A stretch of DNA of 64,000 nucleotides, from contig NZ_QYUO01000001.1 in NCBI RefSeq assembly GCF_003591035.1, positions 434,001 to 498,000 on the forward strand, in the 5' to 3' direction. This stretch comes from Noviherbaspirillum saxi (GTDB lineage Bacteria; Pseudomonadota; Gammaproteobacteria; Burkholderiales; Burkholderiaceae_D). Position numbers and translations under genes: made by a program. Shown here in pieces: positions 4,470 through 36,120 of the stretch (positions are counted from its first letter, which is position 1; each line of letters begins with the position of its first letter). Below the pieces are notes generated by a model, which saw nothing but the letters and a program-made list of their open reading frames with translations, did not search any database and was not told where the DNA came from.

Positions 4470-4724
4470 TTCCATCGATCGGCGATGCCATTGCGCATCG
4501 CCGATACCGAATACCAAAGCCGTTTCAGGTTGCACCGGCAAGACGCGGCTGACGTCATGTGCTCGTGGAGCAAGGCAGGGTGGCACAACGAGGTGATGCG
4601 ATGGCAAGCAAGAGCAACGCCGTGCCGCAGGTAAATCGTCCGGCATCGACGGTACAGTCAGGGTGAAACTGCTGTAGTGCTTAGGATACGCTACACGCCT
4701 GCATCAGCCTGGACATCAAAGTGT

Positions 4725-8839: not shown

Positions 8840-9113
8840 TTAGAGCGGATTGCGGTTCAGCGTAGGGGTCGCGCAGCCCCGGGAACTGGCCGAATGCTAG
8901 GCACGGCGACGCGTCGTAGCGGGGGCTACGGCAAGGAGCCGTAACACCGCAGGCGGCCAGTTCCCGGGGCTGCCCGAAGGGTTCGGACCAGAAGGGCGCA
9001 TTGCGGCGTTGCGCCGCTTGCACAGGGGGCCACCCTGTGCGGCGTGCCGCGCCTTGCACTGCATCCCTTCTGGTCCGAACGCGACCCCTACGCTGACCCG
9101 CAATCCGCTCTAA
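8840..9113. repeat. Three-armed nested inverted-repeat element
   Basis: A 274-base non-coding element. Outer arms 8840-8872 and 9081-9113 are complementary over 33 bases with one mismatch. Inside are two further stems: 8874-8892 with 8954-8972 (19 bp, perfect) and 8981-8996 with 9065-9080 (16 bp, perfect). Each carries smaller hairpins, for example GCACAGGG (9020-9027) with CCCTGTGC (9033-9040), and CGTAGC with GCTACG around 8915-8930. Folded, it is a three-way junction. No open frame inside is convincing. It shares core sequence with the element at 34437-34600. Confidence 0.85.
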
Positions 9114-19828: not shown

Positions 19829-21268
19829 ATGGATCCGCAACCACTTTATCGGCAGTTGGCAAATCACTATCTCGGCGCCATCAAGGCCGGCACGCTGGGA
19901 CAGGGCGAGCGCATGCCCTCGGTACGGTCGATGATGCGGCTGCACGATGTCAGCCTGTCGACCGCGCTCCAAACTTGCCGTCAGCTGGAAAGCGAAGGAT
20001 GGATAGAAGCGCGGCCGCGTTCGGGCTATTTCGTGCGTCAGCCCAGGCGCGTGGCGATGATGCCGCCCGAAGAACCGAATTTCGGACTACCTCCCGATCC
20101 CGCCCAATATGTTGGCATCCATGCCCGCGTATCGGACTTCATCGCAAAGGGACGCGCTTCGCCGATCAAGGTCAATCTGTCTGGTGCGCGCGCCGCACCC
20201 GAACTGTATCCGGCCGCACAACTGAAGAATGCGGCCATTCGCGCCTTGCGCCGCAATCCGGAACTGCTGGTGCGCAGCTGTCCGCCCGGCGGCAATGCGC
20301 AGTTTCGCGCAATACTTGCCCGGCGCGCGCTCGCGCTCGGCATGGTGCTTTCGCCCGACGACATCACCATCACGCATGGTTGTATCGAAGCGCTGAACCT
20401 CGCGCTGCGCGCAGTGACGCAGCCGGGCGACACCGTCGCTGTCGAGTCACCGACTTTCTACGGCCTGCTGCAAATCCTGGAAAGCCTGGGATTGCGGGCG
20501 CTGGAAATTCCGGCGGGAACCGGTAGCGGCATTTCCATCGAGGCGCTGGAACTGGCAATGCAAACCTACGGCAACATCAAGGCCGTGGTGGTGGTGCCGC
20601 ATCTGCAAAACCCGCTCGGCAGCATCATGACCGACGTCAGCAAGCAGCGGCTGGTGCACTTGTGCGAACAGCATGGCGTCGCGCTGATCGAAGACGATAC
20701 CTACAGCGCGCTGGTGGAAAGCGAAGTGCCGCTCAATGCCCTCAAGGCATGGGACCGCAGCGGCAATGTGATCTATTGCGCCTCGCTGCACAAGATCCTG
20801 GCGCCCGGCATGCGGTTGGGATGGATGGTCGCCGGAAAATGGCAGGCGCGGGTGGCGATGCTGAAATATGCGCAGACACGTGACAATGAAGAATGGTCGC
20901 AGATCGCCGCGGCCGAATTCATTGCGTCCACCGATTTCGACCGTCACTTGCGCCGCTTGCGCGCCGCATTGCGGCCGCAACGCGAACGCATGGCCGAAGC
21001 GATCGCCGCCGGCTTTCCGCTCGGGACAAGGATGACCATGCCACAAGGCGGCATCACGCTGTGGATCGAATTGCCGCACAAGCTGTCCGCGAAAAAGGTA
21101 TTCGACGAAGCGCTGCGTCATCAGATACTGATCGCGCCGGGATCGATGTTTTCAAACTCGAATCGATACGACGCATTCATTCGCGTAAGCTGCGGCTGGC
21201 GTTATTCCGAGGAGATTGATGACGCGGTGCGCCGGCTCGGCCATATCGTGTCCGGACTCGCGCGCTGA
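19829..21268 (+). CDS. MocR-type regulator (GntR HTH fused to aminotransferase-like domain)
   Basis: A 479-residue protein with a GntR-type winged helix-turn-helix (residues about 1-72: YRQLANHYLGAIKAGTL, RMPSVRSMMRLHDVSLSTALQTCRQLE) fused to a fold-type I aminotransferase domain. The PLP lysine lies in SLHKILAPGMRLGW. MocR proteins bind PLP or amino-substrate aldimines and do not normally transaminate. The frame is open 209 codons upstream, but the ATG at 19829 gives the exact family N-terminus. An EamA exporter follows 113 bases downstream and is a plausible target. Autoregulation through the inverted repeat at 19741 is likely. Confidence 0.88.
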   Translation: MDPQPLYRQLANHYLGAIKAGTLGQGERMPSVRSMMRLHDVSLSTALQTCRQLESEGWIEARPRSGYFVRQPRRVAMMPPEEPNFGLPPDPAQYVGIHARVSDFIAKGRASPIKVNLSGARAAPELYPAAQLKNAAIRALRRNPELLVRSCPPGGNAQFRAILARRALALGMVLSPDDITITHGCIEALNLALRAVTQPGDTVAVESPTFYGLLQILESLGLRALEIPAGTGSGISIEALELAMQTYGNIKAVVVVPHLQNPLGSIMTDVSKQRLVHLCEQHGVALIEDDTYSALVESEVPLNALKAWDRSGNVIYCASLHKILAPGMRLGWMVAGKWQARVAMLKYAQTRDNEEWSQIAAAEFIASTDFDRHLRRLRAALRPQRERMAEAIAAGFPLGTRMTMPQGGITLWIELPHKLSAKKVFDEALRHQILIAPGSMFSNSNRYDAFIRVSCGWRYSEEIDDAVRRLGHIVSGLAR

Positions 21269-32547: not shown

Positions 32548-34440
32548 ATGGCCGCGGATATCGCGCTGTACGAGCGTCGGCTGACACGAGAAATCAGCGC
32601 CCGCAAGCAGGCGGAGGCACTGCTCGAACAAAAGAGCCTGGAACTTTTTGCCAGGGAGGCGCAAGAACGGAAGCTGGCGGAGCTGGCCTTGCGAGAAAGC
32701 GAAGAACGCTACCAGTTACTGGTGGAGTTGTCACCGGATGCCATCCTGATTGAAGCCGGGGGGCGATTTATCTTTGCCAACGCAGCGGCTGTGCGCCTGT
32801 TCCGGGCGCAAGAGCCAGCTGATCTGCTGGGCTATCGGATGCTCACGCTTGCCGCCCCAAGTTGTCGGGCCGACGTGGAGGCGGCGGTCCGCGACCTGGT
32901 GCAAGGGAGATTTTGTCCGACTGTTGAAGAGCAAGCGGTTCGATTCGATGGAACGATCGTGGATGTTGCGGTGACGCGTCTCGCATTCGACTATCGAAAC
33001 AAGCCCGCAATCCAGATAGTGGCGCGCGATATTTCCGAGCGCAAGCGCCTCGAAACGCAGCTCAATTACCTGGCCACGCATGACACAGTGACTGGATTGC
33101 CAAACCGCATGCTGTTGATGGATCGCCTGCGTCAAATGATCATGGACGCGAAACGCCGACACGACCAATTTGTCGTGTCCTTCATCGATCTGGATCGCTT
33201 CAAGTGGGTCAATGACAGTCTGGGCCACGAAGCAGGCGACACGCTGCTTAAAATCATGTCCCGCAGAATGTCCAGCTGCCTGCGCGAGTCCGACACGGTC
33301 GCGCGCATCGGCGGAGATGAATTCGTCCTTCTCACACAGGATGCCGGCAATCGGGAACAGACCATGCAAATGTTGGGCCGTGTGATGGCTGCGGTGTCCA
33401 TGCCCTTGACCCTCGATGGTCATGAAGTGGCTGTCACCTGCAGTTTGGGCTGCAGCACCTATCCGGATGATGGGCAGGACGCCGAAGCGCTGCTCAAGTG
33501 CGCCGATGCCGCGATGTACAGGGCAAAGGAAATGGGGCGTAACAAAGTGCAGATTTATGACATGGAATTGCGTAGCCAGACCGACAAGAGAGTGAGGCTG
33601 GAAACCGATCTGCGCCATGCGGTCGAACGCGGAGAATTGGTTCTCCACTATCAACCGCAGGTCGATCTGCAGGATGGCAGCATTGTGGGGGTGGAAGCAT
33701 TGCTGCGTTGGCAGCACCCCGAGCTCGGCAGCATCGCGCCTGCCGGCTTCATTCCCATTGCCGAAGATAGCGGCCTCATCGTACCTATCGGCGAGTGGGT
33801 GATCCATCAGGCCTGCATGCAAAACAAAGCTTGGCAACAAGCCGGCCTTCCACCGATACGGGTGGCCGTGAACTTGTCCCCGAAACAGTTAAGTGCTCCC
33901 GGACTGATAGACTTCATCGCCCAATGTCTGTCCACCAGCGGGCTCGATCCCTCCCACCTGGAGCTGGAGCTCACGGAAAGCGCGTCGATGGACGATCCCG
34001 ACACGATCATCCCGCTCATGCACAAGCTGAAGACCCTAGGCGTGAGGCTGTCGATCGACGACTTCGGCACCGGTTATTCGAATATGCAGTATTTGAAAAA
34101 CTTCCCGGTGGATAGCCTCAAGATGGATGGTTCCTTCGTCAGGGAGATCACGACCGATTCACGCAGCCTCGCCATCGCCGACGCGATTGTCGCCATGGCG
34201 CATCGGCTCGGTCTGCAGGTGGTCGCCGAAATGGCGGAAACCGAAGACCAGGTTATGCTGCTCGCGTCGCATGGCTGCGACCACGTACAGGGCTATTATT
34301 TCAGTCGTCCGGTAGGCGCTGCTGAGTGTGCGGAGCTGTTGCATGCCGCTCGCCTGCCTCTTCCTGAAAAGCGCAGATGGCAATGCACTGTACCGGGCAG
34401 ATTGCCAGTGCCTTCACGTAAGGCTGTAAAAGTCGCTTAG
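32548..34440 (+). CDS. PAS-GGDEF-EAL cyclic-di-GMP enzyme, H-NOX partner
   Basis: A 630-residue protein with no membrane segments. An N-terminal coiled coil (about residues 1-55) leads into a PAS domain (about 56-170). The GGDEF domain (about 175-335) has intact RIGGDEF with an RESD inhibitory I-site just before it. The EAL domain (about 350-610) has VEALLRW and DDFGTGYSNMQYL. Both catalytic motifs are present, so it could make and break c-di-GMP. In Shewanella and Legionella, H-NOX binding of NO changes the activity of such a partner and so biofilm formation. The same is inferred here from operon position. Its stop codon lies in the left arm of an inverted-repeat element. Confidence 0.92.
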   Translation: MAADIALYERRLTREISARKQAEALLEQKSLELFAREAQERKLAELALRESEERYQLLVELSPDAILIEAGGRFIFANAAAVRLFRAQEPADLLGYRMLTLAAPSCRADVEAAVRDLVQGRFCPTVEEQAVRFDGTIVDVAVTRLAFDYRNKPAIQIVARDISERKRLETQLNYLATHDTVTGLPNRMLLMDRLRQMIMDAKRRHDQFVVSFIDLDRFKWVNDSLGHEAGDTLLKIMSRRMSSCLRESDTVARIGGDEFVLLTQDAGNREQTMQMLGRVMAAVSMPLTLDGHEVAVTCSLGCSTYPDDGQDAEALLKCADAAMYRAKEMGRNKVQIYDMELRSQTDKRVRLETDLRHAVERGELVLHYQPQVDLQDGSIVGVEALLRWQHPELGSIAPAGFIPIAEDSGLIVPIGEWVIHQACMQNKAWQQAGLPPIRVAVNLSPKQLSAPGLIDFIAQCLSTSGLDPSHLELELTESASMDDPDTIIPLMHKLKTLGVRLSIDDFGTGYSNMQYLKNFPVDSLKMDGSFVREITTDSRSLAIADAIVAMAHRLGLQVVAEMAETEDQVMLLASHGCDHVQGYYFSRPVGAAECAELLHAARLPLPEKRRWQCTVPGRLPVPSRKAVKVA

Positions 34441-34600
34441 GAATGTGTACGGAATAAGTTACCGATTTGGACGCGTCCGACGGGATGCGCTGCAAGGCGC
34501 GAGAAGGAGTCATAGCGAGCTATGGCGACGCCGAGCAACGCTGCAGCGCGCCCGTCAGACGTGAACCAAATCGGGAAATTATTTCGTGCACGTTCCTTAA
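34437..34600. repeat. Nested inverted-repeat element between two convergent genes
   Basis: Arms 34437-34470 and 34566-34599 pair over 34 bases with six mismatches, several of them G-U pairs in RNA. Inside, GGG, a bulged A and a further long stem (34482-34494 with 34542-34553) lead to an apical hairpin CATAGC (34511-34516) with GCTATG (34519-34524). The left arm contains the stop codon of the GGDEF-EAL gene and the right arm that of comM, so the element fills the whole space between them. Its core matches the element at 8840-9113. It may act as a bidirectional terminator. Confidence 0.82.
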
Positions 34601-36120
34601 TGTTCGCGTAGTGCGCGCCGGTACTGAATCGCTTCGGCGATATGTGCCTGCCCGATCGTGGCTGCGCCCGCCAAGTCGGCAATCGTGCGTGCGACCTTGA
34701 GCACGCGGTGATACGCGCGCGCCGACCAGTGCAGTCTCGTCATCGCAGTACGCAATATCTGCTCGCCCGCCTCGTCGGGCTTGCAATGCAGATCGATCTC
34801 GGCAGTCGACAATGCATGGTTGCCCTTGCCTTGTCGCTGCAACTGCAGTGCGAAGGCGCGTTCGACGCGTTCCGTGATGCGCTGCGACGGTTCGCCGTCG
34901 GCTTGCTTCAGCAAGTCCTCATGCGGCAACGCGGTGACCTGAATCTGCATGTCGATGCGATCGAGCAGCGGACCGGAAATCTTGTCCTGGTATCGGGCAA
35001 CCTGATCCGGCGTGCAGCGACAGCGATTGGCGGTGTGACCCAGATAACCGCAGGGGCAGGGGTTCATCGCCGCGATCAATTGAAAGCGGGCGGGAAAATC
35101 AGCCTGCTTCGCCGCACGCGAGATCGTGATATGCCCGGACTCTAGCGGTTCACGCAACACTTCCAGCACTTTTCTGTCGAATTCCGGCAGTTCATCGAGA
35201 AACAAGACGCCGCGATGCGCAAGCGAGATTTCACCCGGACGGGGTGAGCTGCCGCCGCCGACCAGCGCCACGCCGGAGGCGGTATGGTGCGGCGCGCGGT
35301 AAGGCCGAGCCTTCCAGCGCGCAATCGAAAAGCCGCTGGTCAGCGATTGCACGGCGGCCGACTCCAGCGCTTCGTCGTCGGTCATCTGCGGCAGGATGCC
35401 GGGGAAGCGCTGCGCCAGCATCGATTTGCCGGTACCCGGCGGGCCGGCCATCAAGACACTATGTCCGCCGGATGCCGCGATTTCCAACGCGCGCTTGGCC
35501 TGCAACTGTCCTTTAACGTCGGCGAAGTCCGGATAAGTCGGACGCGCCGGCGCCGCTTCGGCGCGATGCCGTGCGAGTCGGGCATCGCTGCCGCGCGAAG
35601 CGAAGTGTGCACACACCTGTAACAACGATTCCGCCGGATAGATGGCTGCGTCGGCGACCAGTCCGGCCTCGTCTGCATTGGCGCGCGGCAGGATGAATGC
35701 GCGTTGCTTGCCGGACCTGTCGGCCGCGCGGTGCATCGCATAAGTCATCGCCAGCGCGCCGCGAATCGGCCGCAACTCTCCCGACAGCGAGAGCTCACCC
35801 GCAAATTCATATTTGGCAAGTTCGTCGCCGGGCATCTGTTCGGAGGCAGCCAGGATGCCCAGCGCGATCGGCAGGTCGAAGCGGCCGGACTCCTTGGGCA
35901 GGTCGGCCGGCGCGAGGTTGACGGTGATGCGCCGCGCCGGGAATTCGAAGCGGGCGTTTTGCAAGGCGGCCCTGACCCTGTCCTTCGATTCCTTTACTTC
36001 TGTTTCAGGCAAGCCGACGATCGTGAAAGAGGGTATGCCATTGGCAAGGTGAACTTCGACGGTGACTTCCGGCGCCTGCATGCCGGACAGGGCGCGGCTT
36101 TTCAAGACAGCAAGACTCAT
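34597..36120 (-). CDS. comM: ComM/YifB Mg-chelatase-like AAA+ helicase
   Basis: A 507-residue protein beginning MSLAVLKSRALSGMQAPEVTVEVHL. An N-terminal Lon-like ChlI domain (about residues 1-170) precedes an AAA+ module with Walker A GPPGTGKSMLAQ and Walker B VLFLDELPEF, and a C-terminal Mg-chelatase domain ending EAIQYRRALREH. ComM is a hexameric helicase that drives branch migration during natural transformation. A degraded copy of its 3' end is found at 22307-22369. It is divergent from ubiK in the usual Burkholderiales order. Confidence 0.93.
   Translation of the reverse strand: MSLAVLKSRALSGMQAPEVTVEVHLANGIPSFTIVGLPETEVKESKDRVRAALQNARFEFPARRITVNLAPADLPKESGRFDLPIALGILAASEQMPGDELAKYEFAGELSLSGELRPIRGALAMTYAMHRAADRSGKQRAFILPRANADEAGLVADAAIYPAESLLQVCAHFASRGSDARLARHRAEAAPARPTYPDFADVKGQLQAKRALEIAASGGHSVLMAGPPGTGKSMLAQRFPGILPQMTDDEALESAAVQSLTSGFSIARWKARPYRAPHHTASGVALVGGGSSPRPGEISLAHRGVLFLDELPEFDRKVLEVLREPLESGHITISRAAKQADFPARFQLIAAMNPCPCGYLGHTANRCRCTPDQVARYQDKISGPLLDRIDMQIQVTALPHEDLLKQADGEPSQRITERVERAFALQLQRQGKGNHALSTAEIDLHCKPDEAGEQILRTAMTRLHWSARAYHRVLKVARTIADLAGAATIGQAHIAEAIQYRRALREH

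Follow-up and report, generated by a model that had tools for sequence, protein, structure and literature searches.

We propose that the element at 34440-34596 of the window (the 64,000-nucleotide stretch of Noviherbaspirillum saxi DNA analysed here) is a non-autonomous transposon (MITE) belonging to a large superfamily whose members share one structured centre, and we regard this reading as probable. The elements display the features of MITEs that were tested, namely terminal inverted repeats, a target duplication, a small non-coding body and presence or absence at a given site. The unusual point is that a conserved folded centre is common to classes with different ends, the function of this centre being only outlined here. 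A sequence-only reading of the window had described the copies near 34440 and 8840 as a repeat family with covarying stems. This is borne out, the covariation being strong with and without an alignment, but the reading was too narrow: it overlooked the target duplications, the fact that the 8840 element is a doublet and the sharing of the core by MITE classes with different ends. The features of both elements and of the adjacent genes are collected in Table 1.

Table 1. Coordinates, in the window, of the two elements, their parts and the genes that touch them.
Feature	Position	Strand	Remarks
Whole palindromic element, class A, 157 bp	34440..34596	+	delimited from the flanks of 16 copies and the 3-bp duplications
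Left target duplication TTA	34437..34439	.	overlaps the TAG stop 34438-34440
Right target duplication TTA	34597..34599	.	is the TAA stop of the comM-like gene (minus)
Left terminal inverted repeat GGAATGTGTACGGAATAA	34440..34457	+
Right terminal inverted repeat, minus-strand reading GGAACGTGCACGAAATAA	34579..34596	-
Core hairpin GCAAGGCG...GCAACGCTGC, 53 nt	34492..34544	+	52 bp from each element end
Covariance-model match (core and inner stem)	34480..34556	+	50.9 bits; copy outside the model's alignment
PAS-GGDEF-EAL gene, stop codon at element edge	32548..34440	+	TAG 34438-34440
Mg-chelatase/comM-like gene, convergent, stop codon at element edge	34597..36120	-	TAA 34597-34599
Whole doublet element, 268 bp, terminal repeat GAGCGGATTGCGG	8843..9110	-	TA at 8841-8842 and 9111-9112
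First core hairpin of the doublet, 55 nt	9003..9057	-	model match 8991-9069; its 70.5 bits are by construction, the copy being within the model's alignment
Linker CCCTTCGGG between the two cores of the doublet	8973..8981	-
Second core of the doublet, diverged and inverted	8884..8962	+	33.3 bits; outside the model's alignment

The window element is a near-perfect palindrome (fold of 34430-34605, -96.2 kcal/mol, z -9.96) and the 8840 element has a fold z of -16.08; both are crossed by mechanical ORFs only. The kinship of the two had been deduced from a pair of short blocks, and these match as announced: 34482-34502 agrees with 9047-9067 (minus) at 18 of 21 positions and 34535-34553 with 8994-9012 (minus) at 16 of 19. 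The folds of both elements likewise contain the predicted flank pairing with GGG/CCC and a bulged A, and show apical hairpins that are unrelated in sequence. Neither block reached its match in 100 mononucleotide shuffles (plus strand); when the cut-offs are relaxed to 17/21 and 15/19, the real window holds one additional match to each block, and allowing 3 mismatches in a degenerate left-block pattern yields 3 matches versus 0.70 expected. One block alone is thus weak evidence, which the block pair and the genome-wide matches are not. Two minor sites of the window may be recorded here: 20241-20259 on the minus strand (GGATTGCGGCGCAAGGCGC) has 2 mismatches to the left block and is a place where the covariance model sees no element, and 4558-4635 (+), a doubtful model match (12.4 bits, E 0.45) containing GCAAGGC and GCAACGCCG, is probably a chance match or a decayed copy.

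Other copies exist throughout the genome. A 123-bp element query returned 16 full-length matches at 87-100% identity, and a core pattern returned 36 matches versus 1 for the reversed control, one of the 36 being a 41-nt chance match. Covariance model R1, built from 66 pattern-found sequences of which nine are from this genome, gave 112 matches at E<=0.1 when 150 of the 4927 first-look candidates were scored. The core measures 53-55 nt in 35 of the 36 pattern matches, although the pattern allowed 36-66 nt, a range that copies with a 14-bp core insertion narrowly escape. Judging by the flanks in this genome, the same core stands at the centre of no fewer than eight classes, which are told apart by their ends. 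These are A (GGAATGTGTACGGAATAA), B (GGCGCCGCGCAGGAATAA), C (TACCAATCC), D (GAGCGGATTGCGG, to which the 8840 element belongs), E (GAGCAGATTGCGTA), F (GGCTACGCTGAATAAG), H (GTGGGTTACTTGG) and J (TGTAGTGTTTCAC); A, B and F look mutually related, and D and H are each seen once. Six copies of class A and one of class B (L011-L016, L025) carry the 14-bp insertion (GGGCCCGCCGAGGG-like) in the left half of their core, which suggests that the classes have exchanged centres or share a secondary event.

The evidence for mobility comes from the near-identical dispersed copies, from the ends and from an empty site. Of 179 cores flanked by 80 nt or more, 52 (near-identical copies among them) are framed by a T.A duplication and a terminal repeat of at least 11/14; with arms exchanged between loci, the same was seen in 3 of 534. 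The duplicated triplets are TTA (29), TAA (14), TCA (5) and TGA (4). In 47 of the 52, the distance from core to left end is 51-54 bp, though the script allowed 20-260; for the right end, it is 50-54 bp in 30 elements, 157-162 bp in 12 and 132-133 bp in 5. Ten joined flanks were also compared with 14 same-genus genomes. The site of copy L019 is spanned without the element in seven relatives, and in three of them (L326, L327, L329) the letters bear this out cleanly, one TTA taking the place of the TTA-element-TTA of this genome; the other four show a poor local alignment or lack the TTA. Overall, clean empty sites were obtained in 3 of 16 comparisons, that is 3 of 7 for L019 and none convincing for L029 (3), L053 (2) or L008 (1). 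For the window copy (L001), two of three relatives carry no element beside comM (L331, L336); this concerns the comM side only, orthology of the left flank being doubtful, and the case appears weaker than that of L019.

The frequent location of such repeats right on stop codons is also simply explained by insertion into T-N-A targets. For 125 loci flanked by 700 bp or more, with genes called as the longest ORF of 100 aa or more, the interval from -4 to +3 around the element edge contains 33 of 129 adjacent gene 3' ends versus 2 of 104 gene starts. T-N-A triplets are stop codons or their complements and the triplet is duplicated on insertion, so that stops would be preserved; T-N-A insertion together with selection against insertions inside genes would then leave many copies exactly at stops. 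The sequence-only reading had both window copies touching the stop codons of their neighbours. This is exact at 34440, where the stops of the PAS-GGDEF-EAL and comM-like genes both overlap the duplicated TTA, and looser at 8840, where the neighbouring frame (9468-9088, minus strand), which has no Pfam match, runs some 20 nt into the element before it stops.

The same contacts had led that reading to a role at gene 3' ends, such as termination, and the elements could indeed be cis-acting RNA hairpins, either bidirectional terminators or mRNA-stabilising structures serving the neighbouring genes. The very stable folds of both window elements, the frequency of the stop-codon position and the strand-specific G.T excess described below speak for this, as do three stand-alone cores located 25-32 nt past the stop of a groEL-like gene (L079, L080, L203), whose arms differ yet pair. 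The copies at gene 3' ends are real, but T-N-A targeting and triplet duplication explain the contact without a termination role. Moreover, 63 gene ends lie on the core strand and 66 on the opposite strand, and this lack of orientation bias argues against a terminator; at the window copy, a pattern scan of 34200-34800 detected 0 terminator-like sites. An intrinsic terminator would have a fixed orientation to the upstream gene and a T-run. Target duplications, the empty site and the high identity between copies also fit poorly with resident 3'-end structures, and we consider a cis-acting hairpin very unlikely. As for the groEL-associated cores, they are possibly an old insertion kept in place; a domesticated groEL 3' hairpin is not general, the variant pattern occurring in 3 of 200 genomes of that family.

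The structured centre is supported by covariation. Across 66 sequences of less than 70% identity, the covariation score is 0.604 versus 0.168 +/- 0.010 for shuffled and 0.125-0.186 for slid alignments, and the proposed structure has 80.2% standard pairs versus 54.6 shuffled and 609 cells changed on both sides versus 243 shuffled, in a set where the search patterns imposed invariant GCAAGGCG and GCAACGCNGC and core lengths of 49-56. An alignment-free test on equal-length cores clustered below 85% identity (53 55-mers) found covariation at 10-45, 11-44, 12-43, 13-42 and 18-38 to 25-31, eleven pairs having 3-4 Watson-Crick types each; the input for the covarying pairs left out 37 of 229 cores with an arm score below 9 or too little flank. 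The flanking arms also pair: complementarity of at least 10 is seen in 188 of 228 scored cores versus 5 of 288 cross-locus arm pairs, and pairing stays high to about 22 nt beyond the core, which extends the module to about 100 nt. The two opposed bulges are kept as well. Among 32 distinct model matches in this genome, which need not fit the search pattern although the model was trained on pattern-found copies, the AA bulge is present in 30 and the CAA bulge in 30, the exact left letters being kept in 24 and the right letters in 20. Six left sides read ACAAGGCG and six right ends GT instead of GC, as an A-T pair replacing the outermost G-C pair would.

The non-Watson-Crick pairs of the stems seem to distinguish the two strands. 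At arm positions 7-21 of 130 sequences, the core strand carries 127 G.T versus 35 A.C, with 68 sequences favouring G.T and 17 A.C (sign test, p 2e-8), and a stricter redundancy cut leaves 101 versus 27 in 101 sequences; positions 5-6, a fixed T.G motif, were left out of this count. The excess is also seen in the covarying core pairs (G.T 74, A.C 31) and, weakly, at the outer arm positions 22-40 (191:139, p 0.02). An inner-core count with A.C above G.T (148 versus 104) was set aside, the alignment having run through the internal loop. Because G.T exceeds A.C on the core strand, the data suggest that this strand folds alone, as RNA or as single-stranded DNA.

Template-switch correction of quasi-palindromes is a known process that can give matched changes in both arms. 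Acting during replication, it could keep arms and centre of a neutral palindrome complementary and would make the covariation uninformative on function; whole elements are palindromic, and part of the stem covariation could stem from it. However, a strand-neutral correction predicts no strand bias, no kept bulges and no fixed core length, whereas G.T exceeds A.C on one strand, the bulges persist in 30 of 32 matches despite differing neighbour letters (with the caveat on model training given above) and the core length is nearly constant within a much wider permitted range. We thus find it quite unlikely that the structure is a by-product of this kind. A free-standing small-RNA gene dispersed by MITE ends would account for the RNA-like pairing statistics and for high pairing up to about 22 nt outside the core in a module of about 100 nt. 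It is nonetheless an unlikely explanation: a scan of 34200-34800 for the sigma-70 consensus, which covers this one copy, gave 0 promoter-like sites, and Rfam has no match to the element. Indeed, a search of the window against Rfam 15 gave 0 matches at the gathering score (mir-431 reached 26 bits against a cut-off of 70) and the sole match among 19 loci, PrrB_RsmZ, is away from the element, so that identity with a known ncRNA was rejected and the family appears absent from Rfam 15 as far as tested (window and 19 loci).

In the MITE reading, and with less certainty than its other parts, the core strand would fold as a single strand (RNA, possibly single-stranded DNA) and be bound or processed by some factor; folding of this kind together with a factor would explain why bulges and G.T pairs are kept despite changing stem letters. 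In its most specific form, this idea holds that different MITE families, IS5-type and others, in Pseudomonadota and in further phyla have inherited or captured a folded, strand-specific and deeply conserved module of about 100 nt that has two opposed bulges, because it serves the element as RNA or single-stranded DNA. We advance it tentatively, the odds being somewhat against it. Attracting a host protein, shielding the long palindrome from cleavage and helping mobilisation are conceivable roles for such a module. If the idea is right, bacterial MITEs would contain a functional structured element of a new class.

Doublets such as the 8840 element bring another type of mobile repeat to mind. 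A CCCTTCGGG-like linker is found downstream of the core in 56 of 172 elements, 20-22 nt away in 55 of the 56, and upstream in 0 of 172. A recognisable inverted second core accompanies 15 of the 56 elements with the linker versus 4 of the 116 without it, and the two cores face each other wherever seen. One could therefore regard the elements as REPIN-like and moved by a RAYT (Y1/HUH) through single-stranded hairpins, doublets being two facing hairpins. The near-fixed position of the linker and the single-strand signature of the G.T excess would agree with this, and Y1_Tnp domains occur in 9 of 10 high-copy genomes. Weak model matches were also obtained within about 1.2 kb at two Y1_Tnp loci of this genome (L104, G000:C1:3170671-3173994; L111, G000:C1:2706167-2709379), that is 2 of its 5 such loci versus 0.28 expected (P 0.03). 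Against it, these are the only 2 of 24 Y1_Tnp loci with a model match within about 1.5 kb, 22 having none, and Y1_Tnp domains are also carried by 24 of 35 genomes chosen without pattern matches (Fisher p 0.25); 12 of these 35 were also searched with the model, which had matches in 5 of the 12 (G007, G015, G023, G062, G070). The strict pattern, which missed a class B copy with an inserted core, gave one match in the 24 loci (L092, judged by eye to be chance). Duplicated T-N-A targets and DDE-type terminal repeats also argue against it. We consider movement by a RAYT very unlikely, the two loci of this genome having raised its odds a little.

Candidate mobilisers of the proposed MITEs are DDE_Tnp_1 transposases, which would move elements with matching ends in trans. 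Paired ends that match core-bearing elements were encountered at four places among the 39 DDE_Tnp_1 loci examined (9 in this genome and 30 in others): (i), L274 in this genome, whose ends TAGGACTTACGCAAAA recur in the Undibacterium element L214 (an NCBIfam search with the L274 frame gave no family); (ii), L294 (Vandammella), with GAACCTGTTCAAAATCT versus GAGCCTGTTCAAAGTCT in L175 of the same genome; (iii), a single Lampropedia place on which L298, L309, L317 and L320 overlap and, (iv), L307 (G225), whose right end is as in Lampropedia L224 and bears a looser likeness to that of G389 elements of its genus. Single-end matches to insertion sequences were common. We take the insertion sequences to be of the IS5 family on the basis of their Pfam domain, size (~0.85-1.1 kb), ends and duplication. 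The 9 DDE_Tnp_1 loci of this genome lack paired ends of classes A-F or H, the DDE_Tnp_1 loci examined gave no autonomous partner for class A and, among the transposase families searched (DDE_Tnp_1, Y1_Tnp), no resident mobiliser of the window copy was found. At one further locus (L321, G294:C1:2285620), a decayed core-bearing element has a DDE_Tnp_1 gene as its immediate neighbour, which looks like the landing of an insertion sequence in the element.

The elements most resemble IS5-family MITEs, which are short, non-coding and present in many copies with terminal inverted repeats and T-N-A or TA duplications, and in a few genomes the likeness extends to ends that match those of DDE_Tnp_1 insertion sequences. 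Whereas it is normally the ends that define a MITE family, the elements described here have one structured centre, placed at near-fixed spacing within classes with different ends. Correia/NEMIS, ERIC and RUP-type repeats are MITE-like and can fold as hairpins, and have been described from particular genera with one end sequence. We know of no GCAAGGCG/GCAACGC core in these repeats. Correia elements are also named in PMC4853749. REPINs and REP/BIME repeats are, like the present elements, palindromic extragenic hairpins that occur as facing doublets (PMC3116915, PMC2817692, PMC3733652). REPs are 20-40 bp long with GTAG or CGTC tags and the GTAG types accompany RAYT genes (PMC3733652). Identity with CGTC/GTAG REPs was rejected on size, the elements being 157 and 268 bp with a core of 53-55 nt versus 20-40 bp (PMC3733652); they further differ from REPs by their end repeats and duplications and by being missing from 22 of 24 Y1_Tnp loci. 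GACG/CGTC is present beside the class A core, but the fold has it paired. Intergenic repeats of 101 and 320 bp, R178 and R200, are reported for P. fluorescens in PMC2718517; their genus also carries the present core (L171, L215), the likeness being by description only. The literature as searched by title, start of abstract and excerpts (including PMC3733652, PMC2718517, PMC4853749, PMC10969869 and PMC2267715) holds no description of the core, and a plasmid and phage search with the window element gave no match.

The core is widespread. At E<=1e-5, the covariance model has matches in 28 of the 100 Pseudomonadota genomes sampled, this genome included, and a stricter pattern matched 60 of 398 (again with this one), the reversed control having matches in 2; many single matches among these 60 look like chance. 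A pattern scan of GTDB gave at least 115 matching stretches. Among the matches listed (80 GTDB titles), 57 are Beta- or Gammaproteobacteria and the remainder include Deltaproteobacteria, Acidobacteria, Alphaproteobacteria, Elusimicrobia, Planctomycetota, Verrucomicrobiia, Clostridia and Actinobacteria; some, with unpaired arms, are chance (L161, L165, L188). MITEs are usually treated as ends plus filler. Here the filler is the conserved part: a folded centre with extreme covariation, held at near-constant spacing from changing ends in more than a quarter of the sampled genomes, and this raises the testable question of what a structured centre does for a transposon that has no gene. Finally, a second arm motif, GATGGATTT...AAAGACGC, recurs beyond the core, at a distance of about 12 bp, in classes C, H and J and in several Betaproteobacteria (L048, L028-L030, L385-L388 and GTDB loci such as L200, L213 and L221).
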